A program made the translations under genes and the position numbers. Below are positions 2,262 to 52,417 of a stretch of DNA of 64,000 bases, in pieces (positions within the stretch are counted from its first letter, which is position 1; each line of letters starts with the position of its first letter). The stretch spans positions 1,302,001 through 1,366,000 of the forward strand of contig JAPNXP010000009.1 of NCBI GenBank assembly GCA_028753945.1. Direction: 5' to 3'. A model generated the notes under the pieces. That model was given only the letters and a program-made list of their open reading frames with translations, was not told the origin of the DNA and did no database searches. Origin of the DNA: Hexactinellida sp. DTS-2022. Taxonomy: Eukaryota; Porifera; Hexactinellida.

Positions 2262-3944
2262 CTATTCTGAGTATAGTATCTGTGGTATTAGTTTTAGAGG
2301 ACGTCTCTTTTGAATATTCCTTGCTATTTCTTGAAAGAATTCGAGTTCTTCTAGTTTACTTGCTGTTGATTCAAGACTGTCTATCTCAATAACATACTCG
2401 TTACATGCAATGCCTCTGATACCTACAAAATCACTGATTGTATTTATGTAGAGGAACAATATTTCCAAATTCCATTGGTAGTTTACACTAACGGCAGATG
2501 CGCGTCTGTTAGTACTTGCGTAGGTTTCATTTGGGTTAGCGTCACATAGAGTGTAACATTGTTTGAAAATGAGTGGAATTGTAGGTCCAGTTATTTCAAA
2601 CACAATAATACCTAATTGTTCTGTAATGCCTAGATCTTTTATTGACCATTTATAGACAGGGAGTTTGCTGTAGAGTTCTTCAGTCAAAATATTGTACTTC
2701 TGTCCTATAAGGGGGAATGCTCTGTTGTTGGGATGAAGGAGATTTCTGGAGCCTGGCACATTCAAATTGAGACACATTTTTAGGTCACTACTCGGCATTA
2801 CTGAAGGAATGTATAGAAAACTATTTCCTGTTATTTTGCATAATTCCCTTAGTTTCTTATCCAACTCTTGCAACTGGGCTGACACATGCATATTTAGCTG
2901 GAATGCTTTCCTCCCTGCGAACATAATTACTAACGCTACGACTGGGCTCGTGTGCACTGTGCAGGCAACTTCTTGGGACAGCTCTATCACACAATCTAGT
3001 TTTAGCTTGTCAGTATCCACTGTCTTTTCGGATGTGAGGTGGCAGCAACTGTGGAAGAGTTTCAACTGTTTGGGTGATATGAGTGACAATTTATGACAGA
3101 TCATCCATTCTAGCTCTTTCACTAAAATTCTTCTCTTTACCCGCAGTGAGATCAGCTGACTCTCTCCATTGCGCTCTGGCCAGGCGTGCACATTTAAATC
3201 TAAATAGCCACTTGAATCGAGTGAGTGGAATAAACTGTGTGGGAGATTGAAGATGGGTATAATGTCAAGGTTTAGGAGGATTGTTTGTTCGCATAGGAAA
3301 ACAAGTGTTCGCGGTTGTTCCAGTAGATTTTCCCTTCCCTCCGCTGTATGTACGGATTGTAGTCTACTATCATAGGCGAACTCGAGACACCTGAAAACAA
3401 TAATATCATTTAAATTATCGTACTGGCATTGATAAATAAGTAAATCCGAGTACACGCTGTTAACAGTGAATATTACATAATTACCAAGGTTTCAAATCGT
3501 TAAATAGCCACCGCCCTAATTCCCTAAATTATTAGAAAACGATGTCTCATCAATTTTCTAACTATTGACTATCTATCTGCTCTACCTTAGTTTGAAATCT
3601 TTGTTGCATAATAATGGATCATAATGTTGAGGTTTGCTTTCTCCTCCCAAGTGTATTTCCATGGTGTTGTTCTTGAACACTTCAAATTGAACTTCTCTCC
3701 CTGCTAGGCTACCGAAGTACGGAATAACTGTCACACAAACATGGTCACCTGGTGGGAAATAATTTATTGCAACTTTGGCAAAAGAGCGGATATCATCAGT
3801 TGGCTCAGTTGTAGTTTGTTTCCAACTTTCACTCAGAACTTCTTGTGCCTGATCTTCAACCAGATGTGAGCGAAGCATATTTGAACACTGTGTGAATACC
3901 CTGCAGTGAACTATATCTGATGAATTAGACAAGTTATTTCCCAT
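2262..3944 (-). CDS. Unrecognised two-exon protein with N-myristoylation motif
   Basis: Exon 1 is 3944-3586, starting at ATG. It ends in a good donor (CTAAG|GTAGAG). Exon 2 is 3390-2262, preceded by a pyrimidine-rich acceptor (TTGTTTTCAG|GTGTC). The join is in frame (phase 2) and gives 495 residues. I do not recognise the protein. The N-terminus MGNNLSN fits the N-myristoylation pattern (Gly2, small residue at 6), suggesting membrane attachment. There is no signal peptide or transmembrane helix. Two stretches (ESQLISLRVKRRILVKELEW and ALVIMFAGRKAFQLNMHV, each followed by a helix-like segment) have the beta-hairpin-then-helix rhythm of ubiquitin-like folds, but this is only an impression. The C-terminus is basic (IQKRRPLKLIP). 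It is probably a real gene, because the splice sites agree and the frame is long in AT-rich surroundings. Confidence 0.7.
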
Positions 3945-6145: not shown

Positions 6146-6416
6146 TTGGTAGTCATATACGTATTCAATGTTTCAATTCAAACTCACTTACATTCATTGT
6201 ATTTAACATTATTGTTGAGTTCAAATAACATCTGTATGTCAAAGTTGTGGTATTACTAATACTAAACTGTTATCTAAGCAGTAAATAATGCAAACAGCCA
6301 AATCTTATGGCTAACAAGTAATTAATTCGAGAACTTGTTGATGGTTTAATTCTAGACTGATAATGAATTTGCTATCCTAATTTGTATACGAATCAGTAGT
6401 AGACCAATTAGTTGAG

Positions 6417-7946
6417 ATGAGTAGCAAACAGATCACTCAGTTATTCGACCATTACCAAAAGGCGCGTACGAATTTCGTTCACTCGGTGTCCGACCTAGCG
6501 TCCCGGCCTCAGAACATCGAGGTGCTACAGACCATGGGCGTGATGCAGCTGCTGCGGCCTCTCCTGCTGGACGTGGTCCCGGTCGTGCAACAAACCGCAG
6601 CGCTGGCTCTGGGCAAGATAGCTAACCACAACGAGGAGCTGGCTAAGCTCGTGGTGGACGGAGAGATCCTCCCGCAGCTGGTCTACTCGCTGGCGGAGCA
6701 GAACAGGTTCTACAAGAAGGCGGCTGCCTTTGTGCTGCGAGCAGTGGCCAAGCACTCGCCCGAGCTGTCCCAGAAAGTGGTCGAGTGCGGGGCCCTGGAC
6801 GCTCTGGTTATTTGTCTCGAGGACTTCGACCCCGGCGTGAAGGAGGCGGCTGCTTGGGCTCTCGGGTACATCGCGGGACACGACGCAGAGCTCGCTCAGT
6901 CGGTGGTGGACAGCGGGGCGGTCCCTCTCCTGGTGCTGTGTCTGCAAGAGCCGGAGATCTCTCTGAAGCGCATTTCCGCCTCCTCTCTCTCCGACGTGGC
7001 TAAGCACACTCAGGAGCTGGCACAAACGGTGGCCGACTCGGGGGCGATCGGACACCTGACTCACCTCATCTCTAACCCGGACGCGAGGCTACGGAGACAG
7101 CTGTTCTCCGCGCTCTCGCAAATAGCGAAGCACTCGATTGAGTTGGCAGAGATGGTCGTGGAGGCCGAGGTGTTCCCTATCGTGCTCAACTATCTCAAGG
7201 ACCCTGACGAGTACGTCAAGAAGAACACAGCTACACTCATTCGCGAAATCGCGAAACACACCCCGGAGCTGGCTCAGCTGATCGTGAACACGGGTGGGGT
7301 GGCGGCAGTGGTGGACTTCATCGGGGAGTCAGCTGGCAGCATCCGACTGCCCGGGATCATGATGCTGGGGTACATCGCCGCCCACTCCGAGACCCTCTCG
7401 ATGGCAGTCATCATGTCCAAGGGCGTGGTCCAACTGGGGTCCGTCCTGACCGGGGAGACGGAGGGACACATCCTGAGCGCGGCCGCGTGGGCCGTGGGGC
7501 AGATCGGGAGACACTCCTCCGAACACGCGCGACACATCGCAGTGGCGAACATATTCCCGGTTCTGCTGGAGCTGCACATTTCGCCCGACAGCTCAGAGGA
7601 CCTCAAGAAGAAGTGCAAGAAGGCCCTAAAGAACGTCCTCAGCAAGTGCGTGTACCTCCCCTCGCTGGAGCCCCTCCTCATAAACGCGCCGCCCAGCATC
7701 CTCAAGCACGTGATAGGACAGTTCTCCAAGGTCCTGCCCCACGACCCCAAGGCAAGGCGTCTCTTCGTGACGTCAGGCGGCCTCAAGAAGGTGCAGGAAA
7801 TCAAAGCTGAGCCCGGCTCCCTCCTGCAGGAGTACATGAATACAATCAACACCTGTTTTCCGGAGGAAATAGTCCGCTACTACTCGCCCGGGTACTCAGA
7901 GACCCTGCTGGACCGCGTGGAGAATTTCCAGCCCGTGGTGAACTGA
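6417..7946 (+). CDS. SPAG6: SPAG6 / PF16, axonemal central-pair armadillo protein
   Basis: A single exon of 509 residues, the same length as vertebrate SPAG6 and collinear with it throughout. Markers are QYVYQKART-type N-terminus (LFDHYQKARTNFV), RPQNIEVLQ, LAEQNRFYKKAAAFVLRAV, GGVAAVVDFIG and the C-terminal KARRLFVTSGGLKKVQEIKA and EEIVRYYSPGYSETLL. It is composed of tandem armadillo repeats (about residues 30-440). Known role: it stabilises the C1 microtubule of the central pair and is needed for ciliary and flagellar motility. Its presence shows that the organism has motile 9+2 cilia. The gene ends only 132 bp before ORC2. It is strongly GC-rich relative to its flanks. Confidence 0.97.
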   Translation: MSSKQITQLFDHYQKARTNFVHSVSDLASRPQNIEVLQTMGVMQLLRPLLLDVVPVVQQTAALALGKIANHNEELAKLVVDGEILPQLVYSLAEQNRFYKKAAAFVLRAVAKHSPELSQKVVECGALDALVICLEDFDPGVKEAAAWALGYIAGHDAELAQSVVDSGAVPLLVLCLQEPEISLKRISASSLSDVAKHTQELAQTVADSGAIGHLTHLISNPDARLRRQLFSALSQIAKHSIELAEMVVEAEVFPIVLNYLKDPDEYVKKNTATLIREIAKHTPELAQLIVNTGGVAAVVDFIGESAGSIRLPGIMMLGYIAAHSETLSMAVIMSKGVVQLGSVLTGETEGHILSAAAWAVGQIGRHSSEHARHIAVANIFPVLLELHISPDSSEDLKKKCKKALKNVLSKCVYLPSLEPLLINAPPSILKHVIGQFSKVLPHDPKARRLFVTSGGLKKVQEIKAEPGSLLQEYMNTINTCFPEEIVRYYSPGYSETLLDRVENFQPVVN

Positions 7947-8078
7947 CCACTGTACGCCTAACTACTAACTGCACTATCTCTTATCTATTCAATTGTATCA
8001 CCTATCCACATTATAGTATACTCTAACTTTGCTACATTTATTTCTATTACTTTTTTATAATTATCGATAGTATATCGG

Positions 8079-35597: not shown

Positions 35598-38017
35598 CTA
35601 TTCAGTAAATCTAGTGTTTACACTAGGTTTTACCCTACAATTAGGGCATGAGAAAGACTCTACGTCACTCGCAGTATCCTCGAATCCCACACACGGCTTG
35701 TGAAACCATTTGAGACAATAGGGGCATTCGATCATGTTATTGAATGCAAATGACGGTAAATTACACAGGCACCATAACTTGATTTTTAATTCTTCTTTAG
35801 AGTGGGTTGTTATTCTAGGTCTAAATATCTTGCTCTGTACCGACGGAAATGGCGCGATGTTATCTGTTTTGAAACAGTCGCTGAGATGTGATCTCATCCT
35901 GTTTTGTCTCCATCGAATTGTGGCTGGATCTACTCCTGTAGCTAAGGCTAGACAGACTGCTCCTGCAAATAACCCACAATCAGCACCGCCCCTTTGTTGC
36001 TGAATCGGAGAAAATGTTACTTTCAGGTCTCCGGTACCATCTCCGTAGAGGAGGGCTAGCTGAACATCAAGCTCTTCACTGGTTCTCCCGGTCATAAGCG
36101 AGTCGTAAAGGGTTACCTGCCCGTCTGCATCAATGCTAGAACAAACCCAGTGGAGAGCTCCATCATGATGTATCTGCATGCTGGGACGAGGAGCCCTCAC
36201 GAATTGCCGATTCTAAAATGAATAGAGTAGTGTCAGGGGCGTAGCCAGTGGGCTTGCAGGGCCTGCCGGCAGGCCCAAACTAAATTCCCGCAGGCCCAAC
36301 TGGGCCTGCGCATTTTCAGAATTTATTCTTCTGAAAATGCGACAACACTTAATTATCTAGAGCTGGACTAATTACAAATGGTAAGTTGTATTATATTTGG
36401 TTTGAAATATTAGTAATATGGTGGTACGTGTCAGTTGTCTTTTTATTACTCCAAACCTTTAAACGATTTCATTATCTTAAGTTCTGCTTGTAGCTTGCAT
36501 TCATTTATACTTGTGCATGTGCGGTATTTAGCTTTTCCTTTTAGATAAATCATGTTTTAAACTACGTAATAAGAAATCAGCAAGTGATAAATAAACGAGA
36601 TCGTAATATAATTTGCAGGCCCAGTCCGTAAAAACTGGCTACGCCACTGAGTAGTGTACGTATAATATACTATGTTTAGTTAATGAATACATTTCGAAGT
36701 ATTAAGTACTTACTCTTGAGAGTATTGTGTCTTGCAGTCCCTGAACATTTGGGTAATTATTCTTTAAAAGATCCTAAAATACAAGAAGATATAAAATAGG
36801 ACGTATTTAAACAAGGCGAATATAATATGCTAAAAAAGTATCTAGACTTTAGAATTTAACTTACACAAAAAGCGTTCAAGCACGTATCTGTTAGAAATGT
36901 ATTCTTTGTTGACAACTCTAGCAAGGACTGGATTCTAACCTTTTGGTCTATGATGGGTGCGAACTGCAACACAGGATCCAGTGGCTTTATATTCAAAAGG
37001 GTGGCTAAAGTGGGTGTAGGTACTGAAGAAGTAGGATGTTGCATACAAGTGCTTTCGGGTTGTTTAAATCCTGGGAAAAATGCATCATTTGTTGTATCAC
37101 TATCAGATAATACTTGTCGTAAAGTAGAGAGATCTGATTGTACGATATTCTCTGCAAAGTTAGAACTTTGGGAAGAGGAATGTGGTGTAGGTGGAGTTCT
37201 AGTAGGGCTAGCATGAGGGGAACGATCTCGAAAGACATGAATGGGTTGATCTCTAGAGATTGGAGGCAACTGTTTTAATCCCTCAAATTCAATATAAGCC
37301 TGTATGATTTTAATCAATGACTGTTTGCAAGTGTGTTTGACGTTCTTATACTCTACATCATCAGGCCAAAAAGGTGGCTTCAGTGTGGGATCCTTCCAAA
37401 AGGCCATATTTTTCCCTAGAATATGTATAAGTAATGTATTAATATTGATGTTTCCAATATAAAATTACAGTGGAGTTCGCATATTAGCAATTCGCCTAAT
37501 TGCAAGCTATTTTTCATCCCCAAGCGAGTTTTTAACTAATTTTAATTTTGTTCGAATAATAGCAAGTTCGCCTGATACGTAGCTAGAAAATTTCGTGGAA
37601 AATTTGAGTTGCTTTTTACAAACTTCACTGTAGCATGTATTATAACTACAACTAGCGCGCTACGCTTGCTCGTAGTAACAATAGAAGGTACTTACCTACT
37701 GATTGTTTAGTAACCCACGAAGCTAGTCTACGAATGGTTGGCACATTATAGCTGTTGAGATCGCCTTTTAAGAGCTCTAGGATTTCTTGGTCATGGGTAA
37801 ACCTTCCTTTGTCCAAATGAGCAGGTTTTCCTACAAGAGACTTGCATGCCTCTTCTTTTACTGTGCCCATTAGAGACTGGAAGTTTTCCGGCCCAATCGT
37901 AGCTAACTTCCCTTGCCACGTGAAGACAGCTCCGATGCTTTCTCCCGTGATTGTATGAAACTTTTTGAGAGTGTTAGTTAACATCTCACGAGCATTTGCT
38001 CTGGTCATTCGTGGCAT
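35598..38017 (-). CDS. Transposon-borne Ulp1-like cysteine protease with PHD finger (4 exons)
   Basis: Exons 38017-37696, 37415-36865, 36773-36714 and 36212-35598 join in frame (phases 1, 0, 0) at GT-AG borders, giving 515 residues. The first half is unrecognised (MPRMTRANAREML...; KNMAFWKDPTLKPPFWPDDV, then a Ser/Pro/Thr-rich linker). The second half has a C48/Ulp1 layout: His in GALHWVCSSI, Asp in LYDSLMTG, Gln in SPIQQQRGG and Cys in ADCGLFAG. It ends with a C4HC3 PHD-like finger (CLCNLPSF, CPYCLKWFHKPC, CPNC). Known: Ulp1-type genes are carried by some DNA transposons, such as plant KI-type MULEs. Inference: it helps the element by SUMO/ubiquitin-like processing or chromatin binding. The gene is convergent with the transposase, 81 bp between stops. 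Confidence 0.75.
36234..36649. mobile_element. hAT MITE with perfect 8-bp target duplication, in protease intron 3
   Basis: The ends CAGGGGCGTAGCCAGT and ACTGGCTACGCCACTG are inverted. The octamer AGTAGTGT flanks both sides exactly (36226-36233 and 36650-36657). Subterminal repeats of GCAGGCCCA are present. It lies between exons 3 and 4 of the Ulp1-like gene and leaves the splice sites intact, so it is a recent insertion in the larger transposon. Confidence 0.92.
37468..37630. mobile_element. TA-flanked 163-bp MITE in protease intron 1
   Basis: The ends CAGTGGAGTTCGC and the inverse of ACAAACTTCACTG pair over about 12 bp, with TA on both sides (37466-37467 and 37631-37632). Inside, TTCGCCTAATTGCAAG and AGCAAGTTCGCCTGAT repeat the end word. 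It is a Tc1/mariner/pogo-type MITE. A short ACTAGCGCGCTACGCTTGCT fragment at 37652 matches the Helitron-like end at 13905. Confidence 0.7.
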
Positions 38018-38171: not shown

Positions 38172-38314
38172 TTAAGTGGCGATTACGTTTAAATTCCTTA
38201 CTAAATATACACTTTTGGTGGCGCATGCGCCAGAGGGAGAGTAGCGCATGCGCCAGGGGAGAGTAGCGCATGCGCCAGAGGGAGAGTAGCGCATGCGCCA
38301 GGGACTTTTTAATA
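38172..38314 (-). repeat. Right terminal inverted repeat with 4 GCGCATGCGC units
   Basis: Inverse copy of the left end: the inner block (TTAAGTGGCGATTACG to CACTTTTGGT), four GCGCATGCGC units with GAGAGTAGC spacers, then CAGGGACTTTTTAATA. It ends 76 bp before the start codon of the next gene. Confidence 0.95.
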
Positions 38315-38389: not shown

Positions 38390-40942
38390 ATGTTGCACCA
38401 TCGCTCGTACCAATCCATTCTCCCCACACACAACAAGCTCCTGCAGCAGCGCTGGGACTCCACCTACTACGAGGAACACCGTCGCCGCATAATGACAGCT
38501 AGCCACATGGTGTCCACCAACGCGCCCAAGCAGCACCTTCACGTCGTGGATAAGCTGAAGAAGCAACAGAGAGAGTCTGAGAGGTCAGAAGTGGTGCAGC
38601 GAGATAACGACACGCTAATGACACACATGTCAGCCATCATGGAGAGGGGCAGCTATGTAGACCATCGTAACGACTACAAACACTGGAGCTTGAACTACGA
38701 AAAGCGAGTGAATGAAATGCAGCGAATCCAGAAAGAGAATATAAAGATGCTCGGCAGGATCCAGTCCCGCCCCGCTAACTACAAAGTGTCCGAGTGGCTG
38801 AAGGACCGCTCTGAGAAGGAGAGACTCATCAGCATGATAACTGCTCATCCCGGATCGCGCCAAACCAGGTCTGCTCGGCCTTATGCTGACAGGGAGAGAA
38901 AGGCGTACTCCCACTCGTCCCTGGTTCCTCTCCAGGTAGATAGCGGCTCTCTGGCTACGCTGGACCCCTCTGAATCGGACACTGTAGAGTCCTTGGAGCG
39001 GGAGCTGGAAGCTGCGAGGATCCAAGTCGACAAGTGTTCGATTGAGAAAAAAATTATTTCTGAGGTGAAGGCAATGAGCAATCCTCCAGCACCGTTTATA
39101 ATGGTAACCGAGGCTTGCGCGATTTTGTTCAACCGGCAACGAGACAAGAGAGACAGCTCATGGCGCGTAGGTGTTACAGCTCTGGCTGAAAACTATTTGA
39201 TAAGCGTTGACAGAAATAGCTTTCCTCTATCAGTTCTGAAGAAACTGCAATTCTACATTGAGAATCCAAAGCTAAACGAGGAAGCGTTGAAATGCGTTTC
39301 TTGGTGCATCTCATTTGTATGGAAATGGGTTGAGAGCGTTTATCATTACGGGGTTTTGGCGCACAAGTATGGGATTAGAGCGGAAGAGATGGGAATAGTA
39401 CCTATTGTACAGAAAGAATTAATGGCAGCCGAACACAGCCCTGTCGTGAAAGAGAAAAAAGTGAAATCTTTCGCGTCTCTAGAACTCTGTGAAACGGACA
39501 CTGTCGAATCTTTGAAACTAGAATTGGAAAAAGCGAGGAGTGAATACAGCAATTGTGAGTTAAAGAAAAATGACCTATCTGAATTGAAGAGTTTGTCTAA
39601 ACCGCCAGCGATGGTTAAACTGGTCCTGGAGGCATGTGGGATTATATTCAATCAGAAAGGAGATAACCTATGGCGCCTAGGATTGATATCCCTGTCACCA
39701 GCCAATGCTGCCTCTATTGACTTGGATAATATTCCATTATCCGTTTTGAAGAAACTGAGAAAATATATCGAGAATCAGGACATCACTGATTCCTCATTAA
39801 AAAAGGTGTCTTTGTGCATCGCCTCAGTATGGAAATGGGTTGAGATCGTTTATCATTACGGGGTTTTGGCGCACAAGTATGGGATTAGAGCCGAAGAGAT
39901 GGGAATAGTACCTATTGTACAGCAAGAATCAATGGCAGCTGAATACAGCCCTGTCGTGAAAGAGAAAAAAGGAAAATCTTTCGCGTCTCTAGAACTCTCT
40001 GAAACGGACACTGTCGAATCTTTGAAACTAGAATTGGAAAAAGCGAAGAGTGAATTTAGAAATTGTGGGATAAATAAGAATGACATAGTTATATTGAAGA
40101 CTATGCCTAAACCGCCAGCGATGGTTAAACTGGTCCTGGAGGCATGTGGGATTATATTCAATCAGAAAGGAGATAACTTATGGCGCCTAGGATTGCTATC
40201 CCTGTCACCAGCCAATGCTGGCGCTATTGACTTAGATAATATTTCATTATCCGTTCTGAAGAAACTGAGAAAATATATCGAGAATCAGGACATCACTGAT
40301 TCCTCATTAAAAAAGGTGTCTTTGTGCATCGCCTCAGTATGGAAATGGGTTGAGATCGTTTATCATTACGGGGTTTTGGCGCACAAGTATGGGATTAGAG
40401 CGGAAGAGATGGGAATAGTACCTATTGTACAGCAAGAATCAATGGCAGCCGAACACAGCCCTGTCATGAAAGAGAAAAAAGGAAAATCTTTCTTGTCTCT
40501 AGAACTCTCTGAAACGGACACTGTCGAATCTTTGAAACTAGAATTGGAAAAAGCGAAGAGTAAATTTAGAAATTGTGGGATAAATAAGAATGACATAGTT
40601 GCTTTGAAGAGTATGCCTAAACCGCCAGCGATGGTTAAACTGGTCCTGGAGGCATGTGGGATTATATTCAATCAGAAAGGAGATAACCTATGGCGCCTAG
40701 GATTGCTATCCCTGTCACCAGCCAATGCTGCCTCTATTGACTTGGATAATATTTCATTATCCGTTCTGAAGAAACTGAGAAAATATATCGAGAATCAGGA
40801 CATCACTCATCCCTCATTAAAAACGGTGTCGTCGAGCACCGTATCGGTATGGAAATGGGTAGAGAGCGTTTATCATTACGGGGTTTCGGTGCATAAATTG
40901 GACCAGCTGAGCACAAACAATTTCTCAAAAGACACTTCTTAA
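38390..40942 (+). CDS. CFAP97D/Hemingway-like protein with four tandem dynein microtubule-binding domains
   Basis: A single exon of 850 residues; the first in-frame ATG is at 38390. Residues 1-165 resemble CFAP97D1/D2: RWDSTYYEEHRRRIMTAS, KLKKQQRESERSE, then NYEKRVNEMQRIQKENIKML, the RI..EN..ML.RI motif of the Hemingway family. From about residue 200 four units of about 170 residues follow. Each has a short coiled coil (LKLELEKARSEYSNCELKKN), a dynein stalk-tip microtubule-binding domain and a second helix. The core SLSKPPAMVKLVLEACGIIF, NIPLSVLKKLRKYIEN and SVWKWVEIVYHYG matches dynein heavy-chain [30 protein letters not shown] and PMVKWAIAQLNYAD. No AAA motor is present. Units 2-4 repeat exactly every 510 bp. 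Inference: a multivalent axonemal microtubule binder or cross-linker. Confidence 0.85.
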   Translation: MLHHRSYQSILPTHNKLLQQRWDSTYYEEHRRRIMTASHMVSTNAPKQHLHVVDKLKKQQRESERSEVVQRDNDTLMTHMSAIMERGSYVDHRNDYKHWSLNYEKRVNEMQRIQKENIKMLGRIQSRPANYKVSEWLKDRSEKERLISMITAHPGSRQTRSARPYADRERKAYSHSSLVPLQVDSGSLATLDPSESDTVESLERELEAARIQVDKCSIEKKIISEVKAMSNPPAPFIMVTEACAILFNRQRDKRDSSWRVGVTALAENYLISVDRNSFPLSVLKKLQFYIENPKLNEEALKCVSWCISFVWKWVESVYHYGVLAHKYGIRAEEMGIVPIVQKELMAAEHSPVVKEKKVKSFASLELCETDTVESLKLELEKARSEYSNCELKKNDLSELKSLSKPPAMVKLVLEACGIIFNQKGDNLWRLGLISLSPANAASIDLDNIPLSVLKKLRKYIENQDITDSSLKKVSLCIASVWKWVEIVYHYGVLAHKYGIRAEEMGIVPIVQQESMAAEYSPVVKEKKGKSFASLELSETDTVESLKLELEKAKSEFRNCGINKNDIVILKTMPKPPAMVKLVLEACGIIFNQKGDNLWRLGLLSLSPANAGAIDLDNISLSVLKKLRKYIENQDITDSSLKKVSLCIASVWKWVEIVYHYGVLAHKYGIRAEEMGIVPIVQQESMAAEHSPVMKEKKGKSFLSLELSETDTVESLKLELEKAKSKFRNCGINKNDIVALKSMPKPPAMVKLVLEACGIIFNQKGDNLWRLGLLSLSPANAASIDLDNISLSVLKKLRKYIENQDITHPSLKTVSSSTVSVWKWVESVYHYGVSVHKLDQLSTNNFSKDTS
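39031..40890 (+). repeat. Coding tandem repeat: four dynein MTBD units, 510-bp period
   Basis: The marker ACCGCCAGCGATGG occurs at 39601, 40111 and 40621, and a diverged first unit has CCTCCAGCACCG near 39083. Units 2, 3 and 4 are nearly identical in DNA, including silent positions, whereas unit 1 is clearly older. The last unit has a shortened end. The array is AT-richer than the 5' third of the gene. Confidence 0.95.
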
Positions 40943-41120: not shown

Positions 41121-41249
41121 AAAAAAATCCAAAATTGCAGCCTGTGCCGACGCATGTTCCTTTGGTGGCACTATATTTTGGTGGTGATCTATTGATAGTG
41201 CCTCCAATAGAACATGCTGTCGACACAGGCTGCAATTTTGGATTTTTTT
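41121..41249. repeat. Long hairpin, copy 2
   Basis: The left arm AAAATCCAAAATTGCAGCCTG pairs with CAGGCTGCAATTTTGGATTTT. An inner stem pairs GGCACTAT with ATAGTGCC around TTTTGGTGGTGATC. Compared with the copy at 10520, several stem positions differ on both sides so that pairing is kept. Confidence 0.85.
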
Positions 41250-49574: not shown

Positions 49575-51086
49575 TCAGCTGCTGTCCCTCATCTTGTGCA
49601 GGTGCGCCGAGTCCATCAGGATGGGGTCCTTGGACATGAGGACCCGGGCCCGCATGGGGCGCTGCTCTCTCAGCAGCCTGTTCGTGGTGGAGGGGAGGAT
49701 CAGCTGTTCCGTCCCCAGCGAGTGCACCTGTGTGCTCTTCGAGTATCCGTTGCGCGGCGGACACTGGGGAGCAGTGGCCACTCGTTGCACGGGAGGGGAG
49801 TTCGTCCTTCCGAAGAACTGGGCCTGGTAGTGCGTCGCGAACTGGTCCCGCTGTGGGTCCGGCCGGTCTGCCATCTCCTGATTGTTAACGAAGCCGGTGG
49901 CCTCCTTGAGTCCCACCCTGGCGCCCCTGCTCCGGGCGGGGTGCGCGTCCGTGTCCGGAACGTGATGCGGGAAGGAGTCCTTCATGACGCTCCTCTTATC
50001 CGTGGTGCGTCGCAGGTTCATGAACTCGGCGGGGTTGGACTGCTGAATGCGCGGGACCAGCTGCGGGGGCAGCTGTCCCAGCGAGGTGTAAGCTTCCGCG
50101 AGTTCGGCCTTCCGCAGGAGGAACTCGGGCAGGTCCCGGTGCCCCTTTATGAACCCGTTAGAGATCTCTGCCGACTGGCAGAGGTGCGTCCCGTAGAGGA
50201 GAGGGGCGCCCGGCCCGCGCGGCGAGCTGGCCCGGAAGTCCTCCTTCATGGCGCTGAGGCCGGTGGGGCGGGTCGTGGTGGCGCCGCGCTCCCTCCCGAT
50301 CAGAGCCTCGTCCCTCCGGAAAGTGATCGGTTCGACCTGCTTGCAGTGCGTGAAGCCGGTCTCCTCCTTCTCCCCCAGCGCGAGGCGCAGCGGGCCCTCG
50401 TGCGAGAAGCGGTTCTGCTTCTGCGTGTAGGCCGCCTGCTGCTCGGTGGAGAAGGCATAGGGCCCCAGCCCCGAGTTCTCCTCCTCCACACGGGTCTTCA
50501 CGAAGCGCCCCTTGGGCTCGAAGTGGTGCGGGAGAGTCACCCCCAGCACCTGGCCCGGCCCCCGCTCCCGGGTATCCACGTGCACGGACTGCACGTTGCT
50601 GCGATACGGCCGCGTGATCGGAATGTCCTTGGTGTACCCCATGTCGGTTTGGTGCGTGGCGGTCGGCAGCAGCAGGAAGGCCGGACAGTTCCCGTGCGCG
50701 GGCCTGGCCTGTCCGCTCAGGGCGGGGGGCTGGGAATGGATAAAGTTGGCCTTGTTGGTGGCGAGATCGAAGTCCTGTCGGTAGACCGTGGCGTCCTTGT
50801 TCCGCTCGAGGTGCTCCCCCAGGCCCGGGTTGTCCACCGCGTCCATGCGGTAGTTGTACCCGACGGAGGGCCGGAAGTTGCTCCCGTAGCCCGTGCAGTT
50901 GCTCCTCCACTCCAGACGCGGGCTGAACTCGGGCTGTCCGAAGTAGCGGTCGTACGCAGTCGAGTAGAAGTCGTAGGCGGTGCGGCGCGCGTTCCCGCGG
51001 CTGCAGAGCACCTCGTGACAGGCGGCGCCGATCTGCCGCTTCCCGGGCTCCCGCGTCTCAGGCGGGCGAACTGCTACTCGGGACAT
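49575..51086 (-). CDS. SAXO4: SAXO4 (PPP1R32), stabiliser of axonemal microtubules
   Basis: A single exon; the ATG at 51086 (MSRVAVRPPE) gives 503 residues. It matches vertebrate PPP1R32/SAXO4 in order: DFYSTAYDRYFGQPEFSPRL, TGYGSNFRPSVGYN, DAVDNPGLGEH, the VHVDTRERGP block, GEKEETGFTH, QQSNPAEFMN, GLKEATGFVNN and RDQFATHYQAQFF. The repeated TGF/TGY patches are typical of microtubule inner proteins. Known role: an inner protein of axonemal doublets in cilia. A TIR element begins 43 bp upstream of the start codon. Very GC-rich; long antisense frames across it are shadows. Confidence 0.9.
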   Translation of the reverse strand: MSRVAVRPPETREPGKRQIGAACHEVLCSRGNARRTAYDFYSTAYDRYFGQPEFSPRLEWRSNCTGYGSNFRPSVGYNYRMDAVDNPGLGEHLERNKDATVYRQDFDLATNKANFIHSQPPALSGQARPAHGNCPAFLLLPTATHQTDMGYTKDIPITRPYRSNVQSVHVDTRERGPGQVLGVTLPHHFEPKGRFVKTRVEEENSGLGPYAFSTEQQAAYTQKQNRFSHEGPLRLALGEKEETGFTHCKQVEPITFRRDEALIGRERGATTTRPTGLSAMKEDFRASSPRGPGAPLLYGTHLCQSAEISNGFIKGHRDLPEFLLRKAELAEAYTSLGQLPPQLVPRIQQSNPAEFMNLRRTTDKRSVMKDSFPHHVPDTDAHPARSRGARVGLKEATGFVNNQEMADRPDPQRDQFATHYQAQFFGRTNSPPVQRVATAPQCPPRNGYSKSTQVHSLGTEQLILPSTTNRLLREQRPMRARVLMSKDPILMDSAHLHKMRDSS

Positions 51087-51128
51087 GTCTCTAGTTCGGA
51101 GATAGCTACACACATGGAGAACAAGATG

Positions 51129-52417
51129 CCGGTGTAAGCGCGCTATGGGACCCCAGTCACCCCATCCCTAAAGCCCAACATATATGTTGAAAAGTTGCAC
51201 CCTGTATGATTGTTGCACGCAATATTGTTGCATGGAAATTGGACATGTTCAATTTTCTTGCAACATTGTTGCACGAAAATATGGAAATTCCATATGCGCT
51301 AAGGACTTTTTAATAACTCGGAAATTCAGTACATATTTTTCAAATTATTTTCGTTTGCATTTTTTCACCTACTCAAAACAATTGAAAAATTCACATGTTC
51401 TTTCTAGTGTACCTATTTAATTTACTGCTTACTTTCTCAGTACCCTTAATCAAGCCACCTATGGTGCGAACACAATTGTATATATTATAATTTTGAGTAC
51501 GGTTTTACTAACACTGAATTCGTATTGCTGCATATTATTTTCCTAGAAATTCTAAATATCTAAATTATCCACGACCCGTTAACGACGTTTTTTGATTTTT
51601 GAATTAATCGAGAAAATATAGATTAGACATTTTGGAATTGCACATGTACTAGCCATTGTGTTTCTAAGATCCGGGTAAATTCTAGTTATGGGCAGCCTCC
51701 GAGAGACAGTGCACGGAAAAGGGAGGTTTTGATGAATATATAGATATCCAGTTCTAACTAAGAATACCAAAATTGCTATACCTTATAAATTATTACTGGA
51801 CAGACGATCCATCCTTACGAAATTTCTATAACTGGATGTGTCAACTAAAAAATTTATTTCATCAATAGATGAAATGCACTTTGCGTCTCGATTTAGATCC
51901 AATCCTTGTTGCTTAACCCATGAGATCTCAATTTGCGTTGACGGGTCAAATGCAATTTCCTCCTGCGAAGTATAATAATTTGGAATGCGGAAACGACAAC
52001 GTGTGTTTTATCCACAATAATGAATTGGGAAATAACAAGTCCATTGGGATTATACGTATAGTACTGATTTAAAAGAATATTTTACCATGTGTAATAGAGT
52101 AATTTCCATGCAACAATGTTGCACGAAAATAAATGTTGCATGCAACTTGTCGCACGAAAATTGTGTTGCATGCAACATATTGCTGCAACATTGTTGCACC
52201 GTGTATGTTACCTTGTTGCATCGTCTATGGTGGGCTTAAAACGCTAGCGTTTTGGGCCCCTGGGCTTCAAGGTGATAGGAGCGTAGGTTTTCGACTCCCG
52301 ATAACCCCCAATTTTGATTGCGTTTTAAAACACTAGCGATATGGGGGACCCAAACGCTAGGCTTTAGGGCCGGGTGGGGGGGGCTAAAACGCGGGGTCCC
52401 TAAAGCGCTTACACCGG
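51129..52417. mobile_element. 1.3-kb non-coding TIR element upstream of SAXO4
   Basis: The ends are CCGGTGTAAGCGCGCTATGG with GACCCC and its inverse (GGGGTCCC, TAAAGCGCTTACACCGG), about 25 bp with four differences. Inside each end are clusters of ATTGTTGCA/TGCATGCAAC words (51190-51290 and 52105-52220) that are largely inverse to each other. A perfect palindrome AAAACGCTAGCGTTTT follows near 52238. No protein is encoded. I do not recognise the superfamily and see no clear target duplication. It fills almost all the spacer between SAXO4 and SREBP. Confidence 0.7.

Follow-up and report, generated by a model that had tools for sequence, protein, structure and literature searches.

Tandem dynein-like microtubule-binding domains joined to a CFAP97-type domain, without a motor, in a probable glass-sponge protein family

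To our knowledge, the microtubule-binding domain (MTBD) of dynein occurs elsewhere only at the end of a motor stalk, its affinity set by the motor ring through the registry of the stalk. MTBDs are described as binding tubulin at the intradimer cleft. CFAP97D1 is described as a member of the sperm doublet that is not among the inner proteins, and because both CFAP97D1 and EFCAB3 disappear when TSSK6 is lost and all microtubule inner proteins stay in place (PMC13066092), CFAP97D1 can be placed on the outer doublet surface. In mouse sperm, loss of Cfap97d1 is reported to accompany frequent loss of doublet 4 (PMC7444823). Here we analyze a gene that joins parts of these two kinds of protein. It lies within a 64,000-nucleotide stretch of the genome of Hexactinellida sp. 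DTS-2022 (the window, contig JAPNXP010000009.1), and it encodes a CFAP97-type N-terminal part followed by four dynein MTBD units with no motor, an architecture that we regard as nearly certain.

The gene is an open frame of 850 codons that runs without interruption, as the original prediction from the sequence had it, from an ATG at 38390 to a stop at 40940-40942. The frame looks complete because both protein termini, SYQSILPTHNKLLQ at the N-terminus and KLDQL...SKDTS at the C-terminus, are found again in several related gene models. In the window genome (G000; 112.4 Mb, 18 contigs) the locus is C18:1340390. Its parts are given below, with AlphaFold2 (AF2) confidence (pLDDT) for the linkers and, for the units, bit scores from a dynein-only profile introduced in the next paragraph.

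38390..40942, + strand: single-frame gene for a CFAP97D1-like domain and four dynein MTBD units; 850 residues, stop included in the span
38390..38839, + strand: CFAP97D1/Hemingway-like domain, residues 1-150; PF13879 at residues 30-125
38840..38968, + strand: low-confidence linker, residues 151-193; AF2 pLDDT <50 at 147-189
38969..39379, + strand: core of MTBD unit 1, a diverged copy, residues 194-330; dynein-only profile 46.9 bits at residues 206-324, PF12777 26.1 bits
39380..39487, + strand: linker 1-2, residues 331-366; pLDDT <50 at 338-360
39488..39889, + strand: core of MTBD unit 2, residues 367-500; dynein-only profile 62.0 bits at residues 389-494
39890..39997, + strand: linker 2-3, residues 501-536; pLDDT <50 at 508-530
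39998..40399, + strand: core of MTBD unit 3, residues 537-670; dynein-only profile 59.3 bits at residues 549-664
40400..40507, + strand: linker 3-4, residues 671-706; pLDDT <50 at 677-700
40508..40939, + strand: MTBD unit 4 with a short C-terminal tail, residues 707-850; dynein-only profile 59.8 bits

Over the whole protein, the dynein stalk family PF12777 scores 47 bits against a cut-off of 24, in two stretches. Taken singly, unit 1 passes, units 2 and 4 reach 21.5 and 12.6 bits, and unit 3 gives no match at E 0.1. Since Pfam support is thin for three of the four units, we built a dynein-only profile from 14 dynein MTBDs, 10 from the window genome and 4 from PDB alignments. This profile matches all four window units and finds at least one unit in each of the 15 family proteins described below; the best score among its controls, 2000 shuffles of residues 191-850 and the 15 reversed family proteins, is 7.7 bits. 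Compared profile to profile with six dynein stalks from the window genome, the units reach a probability of 98.4 with an E-value of 6e-15. A ten-member family profile has 65 matches in the PDB, and the 60 listed are CFAP97 proteins or chains that we took as dyneins. Some of the latter carry other labels, namely AAA+ ATPase, MKIAA0325 and, for 9fqr chains longer than 4000 residues that matched at the stalk position, two odd ones. The earlier assignment of the four repeats to the dynein MTBD is therefore upheld by PF12777 on the whole protein, by the dynein-only profile and by profile-profile comparison, and the profile search that the original prediction had proposed came out in its favor. Two other families, Imm44 (30.7 bits) and BET (26.4 bits), likewise exceed their cut-offs on the whole protein; we set them aside as sums over repeats because Imm44 falls below its cut-off on unit 1 taken alone (14.1 bits) and BET is listed for none of the units.

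Units 1 to 4 follow one another at a spacing of 510 bases in aligned blocks, unit 4 being without the long linker. Units 2-4 are 73-88% identical to each other as protein, and unit 1 is 46-59% identical to them. The 126 bases after unit 1 (39362-39487, residues 325-366) match those after unit 2 (39872-39997) at 119 positions, although the unit 1 and unit 2 proteins are 59% identical, and such near-identical DNA beside differing cores would be the mark of unequal crossing-over or gene conversion.

Our reading of the structure relies on a full-length AF2 model made with ten sequences; a one-unit model built from the four window units was poor (pLDDT 54) and was dropped in its favor. In the full-length model the predicted units have the MTBD fold, in agreement with the fold comparison suggested at the outset, and the short coiled coils earlier said to bracket the units appear as predicted helices, about 17 and 29 residues long. 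The CFAP97 part of the model is of low confidence (block means about 30-60), and its fold was not used. Relative to dyneins, most units have two extra residues between the first coiled-coil helix (CC1) and helix H1, the units of P0009 and P0013 being exceptions, and the predicted model breaks the helix at this point; for these two reasons we infer, without proof, that stalk registry may no longer control H1.

The absence of a motor, also part of the original prediction, is confirmed. Pfam lists 16 families on this protein, none of them a Walker or AAA family or a dynein heavy chain tail or linker family; PF12777 is covered only from about profile position 88 to 213 of 344, and the full stalk coiled coil is not present. 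The nearest listed AAA_8 or AAA_9 match on the same contig (C18) lies about 516 kb away. Genome searches scored best candidates only, so that all their counts are lower bounds: at least 20 PF12777 pieces, grouped by position into 15 loci, at least 27 AAA_8 pieces and at least 29 AAA_9 pieces. All 15 PF12777 loci have a same-strand AAA_9 match within about 5 kb, and 14 have AAA_8 (C1:6840798 is the one without). The window locus does not appear in this set of 20 PF12777 pieces because the family model matches it too weakly.

In the N-terminal part, PF13879 (CFAP97/Hemingway) scores 59.9 bits on the whole protein, at residues 30-125, against a curated cut-off of 25.6, and 63.9 bits when the N-terminal part is scanned alone. 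Residues 4-141 are colinear with residues 2-139 of the CFAP97 protein in PDB 8snb (E 2e-21), which we take to be a sea-urchin sperm structure, and the CFAP97D-type N-terminus first proposed thus stands. This is the most conserved section of the protein: the first 165 residues are 92% identical to P0002, 72-75% to P0008, P0009 and P0013, and 46-47% to P0018, P0021 (Pinctada imbricata) and P0026 (Lingula anatina). The N-terminal part is 36% identical to the 8snb protein and 33% identical to a plain CFAP97 frame of 198 residues that the window genome also holds, at C1:10628587.

The window protein is not alone. We found 14 further database proteins with one to five units each, and the layout originally proposed for a single protein, CFAP97D plus MTBD units without a motor, holds and extends to a family. 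Precomputed Pfam matches place PF13879 in nine of the 14 (P0002, P0003, P0004, P0007, P0008, P0009, P0010, P0012 and P0013), so that both parts occur together in nine database proteins of relatives; P0008 is from the glass sponge Oopsacas minuta, and P0012, a TRINITY open reading frame listed under EukProt, carries CFAP97 followed by unit 1 and the first part of unit 2. Four pairs come from contigs of equal length (P0003/P0004, P0005/P0011, P0007/P0014 and P0013/P0017), which suggests paralogues side by side. A homolog search with P0013 returned 34 proteins, four with MTBD and 30 plain CFAP97; no MT family is listed for those 30 or for P0015, and 11 of these plain CFAP97 proteins scored at best 5.4 bits with the dynein-only profile. 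In two of the three homolog searches scoring was limited to the 7993-7994 candidates with the most words in common, and in the third it took in all 725; the spread of the family is therefore a lower bound.

In a tree of the MTBDs built on 99 columns, a branch with support 100/98 separates all 43 units from the 12 dyneins, consistent with a single origin of the units and later duplication. The small number of columns and the meeting of long branches are caveats to this tree, which does not resolve the nearest dynein. It used 12 of 13 dynein rows (L023 was left out); the broken second unit of P0012 and the three units of P0017 lie outside the 43, and the exon pieces L018, L019, L021, L022 and L024-L028 outside the alignments. 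First units of P0001, P0002 and P0007 cluster (99/83), as do units 2-4 of P0001 (100/96), a grouping as expected if later units were homogenised. A 25-row tree of CFAP97 sequences has a branch (93/94) that sets the nine CFAP97 parts of fusion proteins apart from the rest; as this branch is below the star threshold and two outside branches are very long, it is a hint only. The best own-genome dynein match of the units is a C2 gene (35% identity) that is closest in the PDB to DNAH6; together with the missing flap, this makes a DNAH6-like donor dynein a lead, not a result.

Overall, we believe that the protein is a motor-free microtubule-associated protein of motile cilia that acts as a passive clamp, and we put the probability of this reading at about one half. 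The CFAP97D1-type domain would anchor it on a doublet microtubule, and four MTBDs, strung on flexible linkers some 38 residues long, would add a multivalent, ATP-independent grip on tubulin, landing further along the same doublet or on a neighboring one. Each unit would still bind, weakly by itself and with its binding summed over the units, and the protein would in this way clamp or stiffen the axoneme. A passive clamp along or between doublets reads best because a CFAP97 anchor is combined with weak MTBDs on linkers, and MTBDs bind tubulin from outside. On a longer time scale, we would tentatively propose, at a little under even odds, that the MTBD escaped its motor once, in the glass-sponge lineage, became a free and duplicable tubulin-binding repeat with the stalk-registry switch disconnected, and was joined to a CFAP97 anchor to give a passive multivalent clamp or a dynein brake on ciliary doublets.

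How strongly the units could grip was assessed from tubulin contacts given in PMC7042235 and PMC6629372, mapped through the human DYNC1H1 sequence (mouse numbers are human minus 2); one H3 position is uncertain, as PMC7042235 has R3334 where the human sequence used has K. In helix H1, K stands at mouse K3299 in 38 of the 43 units, K or R at yeast R3124 in all 43, and E at yeast E3122 in 31 (window units 1-4 have E, E, I and A); the H1 contacts are thus mostly kept, and with the proline (PP) pair they may be called nearly invariant. Mouse numbers 3298, 3337, 3378 and 3382, and the equivalence in H6, are assumed here.

At the same time, several results weigh against the clamp. In H3, all four window units have R at mouse 3334 and no basic residue at 3337 or 3342, and in H6 units 2 and 3 have K, unit 1 has C and unit 4 has T. 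Of six basic contacts scored, window units 1-4 keep 3, 4, 4 and 3, and the 43 units keep 2-5; the H3 and H6 contacts are eroded, and unequally so, which argues against equal stapling by every unit. With the H1 surface held and the remainder weakened, weak grips are predicted, not four full-strength feet. Ratios of nonsynonymous to synonymous change (dN/dS) between units, based on 24-40 differences in 396 bases, are 1.07 (2 v 3), 0.84 (2 v 4) and 0.57 (3 v 4) by NG86 and 1.49 (2 v 4) and 0.98 (3 v 4) by YN00; they show recent unit copies without strong purifying selection. A Foldseek search with the predicted model returned nothing below E 0.001 (best E 6e-3). Finally, five of the 15 family gene models (P0005, P0006, P0011, P0014 and P0017) contain units and yet give no match to CFAP97 in Pfam. 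These may be array-only paralogues or incomplete models, and unless they are incomplete the CFAP97 anchor would not be universal.

The eroded and unequal contacts, the dN/dS values near 1 and the passing of the Pfam cut-off by unit 1 alone would all fit units that keep the MTBD fold but do not bind microtubules, serving as a spacer or as a platform for other proteins, with CFAP97 alone touching the doublet. We consider this unlikely, since the H1 contacts and the PP pair are nearly invariant across 43 units, and since basic residues in H3 and H6 are missing from several of the aligned dyneins too (the 14 dyneins keep 1-6 of the six contacts, eight of them keeping 4). Somewhat less probable still is a decoy or brake, in which the array occupies the neighboring-doublet sites of inner-arm dyneins and limits or synchronises sliding. 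The likeness of the units to flapless axonemal dynein MTBDs, seen in the C2 gene and DNAH6, suggests that they would share the dynein site; the eroded contacts, however, suggest binding weaker than that of dynein, and the nearest dynein is not shown by the tree. We regard as improbable a cytoplasmic role in bundling microtubules of the giant glass-sponge syncytium instead of the axoneme. Glass sponges are described as syncytial in PMC10280926, and a third of the gene models are without the CFAP97 match, but the most conserved part of the protein comes from a ciliary family, and multiciliated larval cells and flagellated chambers are reported in the same text, so that cilia are available (PMC10280926). 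An annotation or assembly artefact or a pseudogene, from fused neighbors or a collapsed repeat, might be suspected from repetitive DNA at 510-base spacing and from the dN/dS values but is hardly credible, given a frame open across 850 codons, copies different enough to assemble, and the same fusion in nine other database proteins, one of them a TRINITY frame, even if not all are independent (P0003 and P0004 have contigs of equal length).

A Pfam scan covered the array gene and 20 others of the 35 window frames of at least 180 codons, and 15 of the 20 had a match; several of these, each a long single frame, belong to animal families (LCAT, ORC2, GPHR, AP5B1, P-domain subtilase, PMT and AMP-binding), and a single-frame gene is therefore unremarkable in this region. 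Two other ciliary genes lie in the window: a SPAG6/PF16-type armadillo protein at 6381-7943 on the + strand (E 1e-256 to Sperm-associated antigen 6 in 9ijj), a central-apparatus protein and the second axonemal gene, and a PPP1R32 family member at 49578-51167 on the - strand (PF15691, E 5e-58), the third ciliary gene. PPP1R32 is presumably SAXO4, a doublet inner protein. A frame at 35598-36200 on the - strand has a translation resembling what we take to be a Ulp1-type protease with a PHD finger, perhaps transposon-derived. Upstream of the ATG, 38218-38303 holds 45-base repeats containing the palindrome GCGCATGCGC, and downstream of the gene there is an inverted repeat at 41121-41249 whose 31-base arms are 97% complementary and which may represent a small mobile element.

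Elsewhere in the genome, dynein heavy chains occur as single frames of 3993-4499 codons at C1:1362107, C2:5809744, C11:14941992 and C8:1641283; unlike these, other dynein loci are broken up into numerous pieces. At C4:673861-676962 and C4:548961-551396, frames of 5038 and 4848 codons have AAA_8 and AAA_9 matches, with no PF12777 among the matches listed, and are possible dynein-like proteins whose stalk tip is lost or very divergent. At C10:2235794-2240911 there is a divergent dynein-like gene with weak MT, AAA_8 and AAA_9 matches and frames of 1585 and 1523 codons.

If our reading is right, a natural motorless string of one to five MTBDs would mean that the domain can function as a module in its own right, and it would let one study in a natural protein how affinity is determined once the stalk has been reduced to a stub. 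The MTBD-array protein may be a lineage-specific part of glass-sponge cilia, one in which nature has seemingly reused the foot of a motor as a plain gripping device.

Among known systems, the units are like the stalk tip of dynein heavy chains (PF12777; DNAH6, DNAH1, DNAH2 and DYNC1H1) in sequence, predicted fold, PP pair and H1 contacts, and like the DNAH6 and DYNC1H1 rows they have no flap insert. Unlike a dynein heavy chain, the window protein has four MTBDs in tandem, no AAA+ ring and no tail; unlike a dynein stalk, its units have the partial PF12777 span already noted, and the proline of the second coiled-coil helix (CC2), present in eight of the nine dynein rows that reach it, is found in none of the 43 units. 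The N-terminal 150 residues are colinear with CFAP97D1/Hemingway (PF13879), whose plain members are without the MT family. Constructs that fuse an MTBD to seryl-tRNA synthetase (SRS) (PMC6629372; 3err and 3j1t were matched) are likewise motorless MTBDs on a short coiled coil, but they are man-made and hold a single unit. DNAH12, described as a dynein lacking an MTBD, is the mirror image, a motor without an MTBD; in both, a module of dynein has been gained or lost. A radial spoke 1 (RS1) subunit, PDB 7jtk chain C (residues 446-604), is not among the sequence matches listed and may share only a common helical bundle; this chain may be the RS1 adaptor FAP253/IQUB. We found no description of a motorless dynein MTBD protein in the open-access literature searched; the parts are known, and it is their combination that is not described there. 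Tandem-domain microtubule-associated proteins, such as those with tau repeats or TOG arrays, also carry several tubulin-binding units on flexible linkers, although the domains are unrelated. It is with these that we would file the window protein, as a tandem-domain microtubule-associated protein made from a module that we know only from motors.
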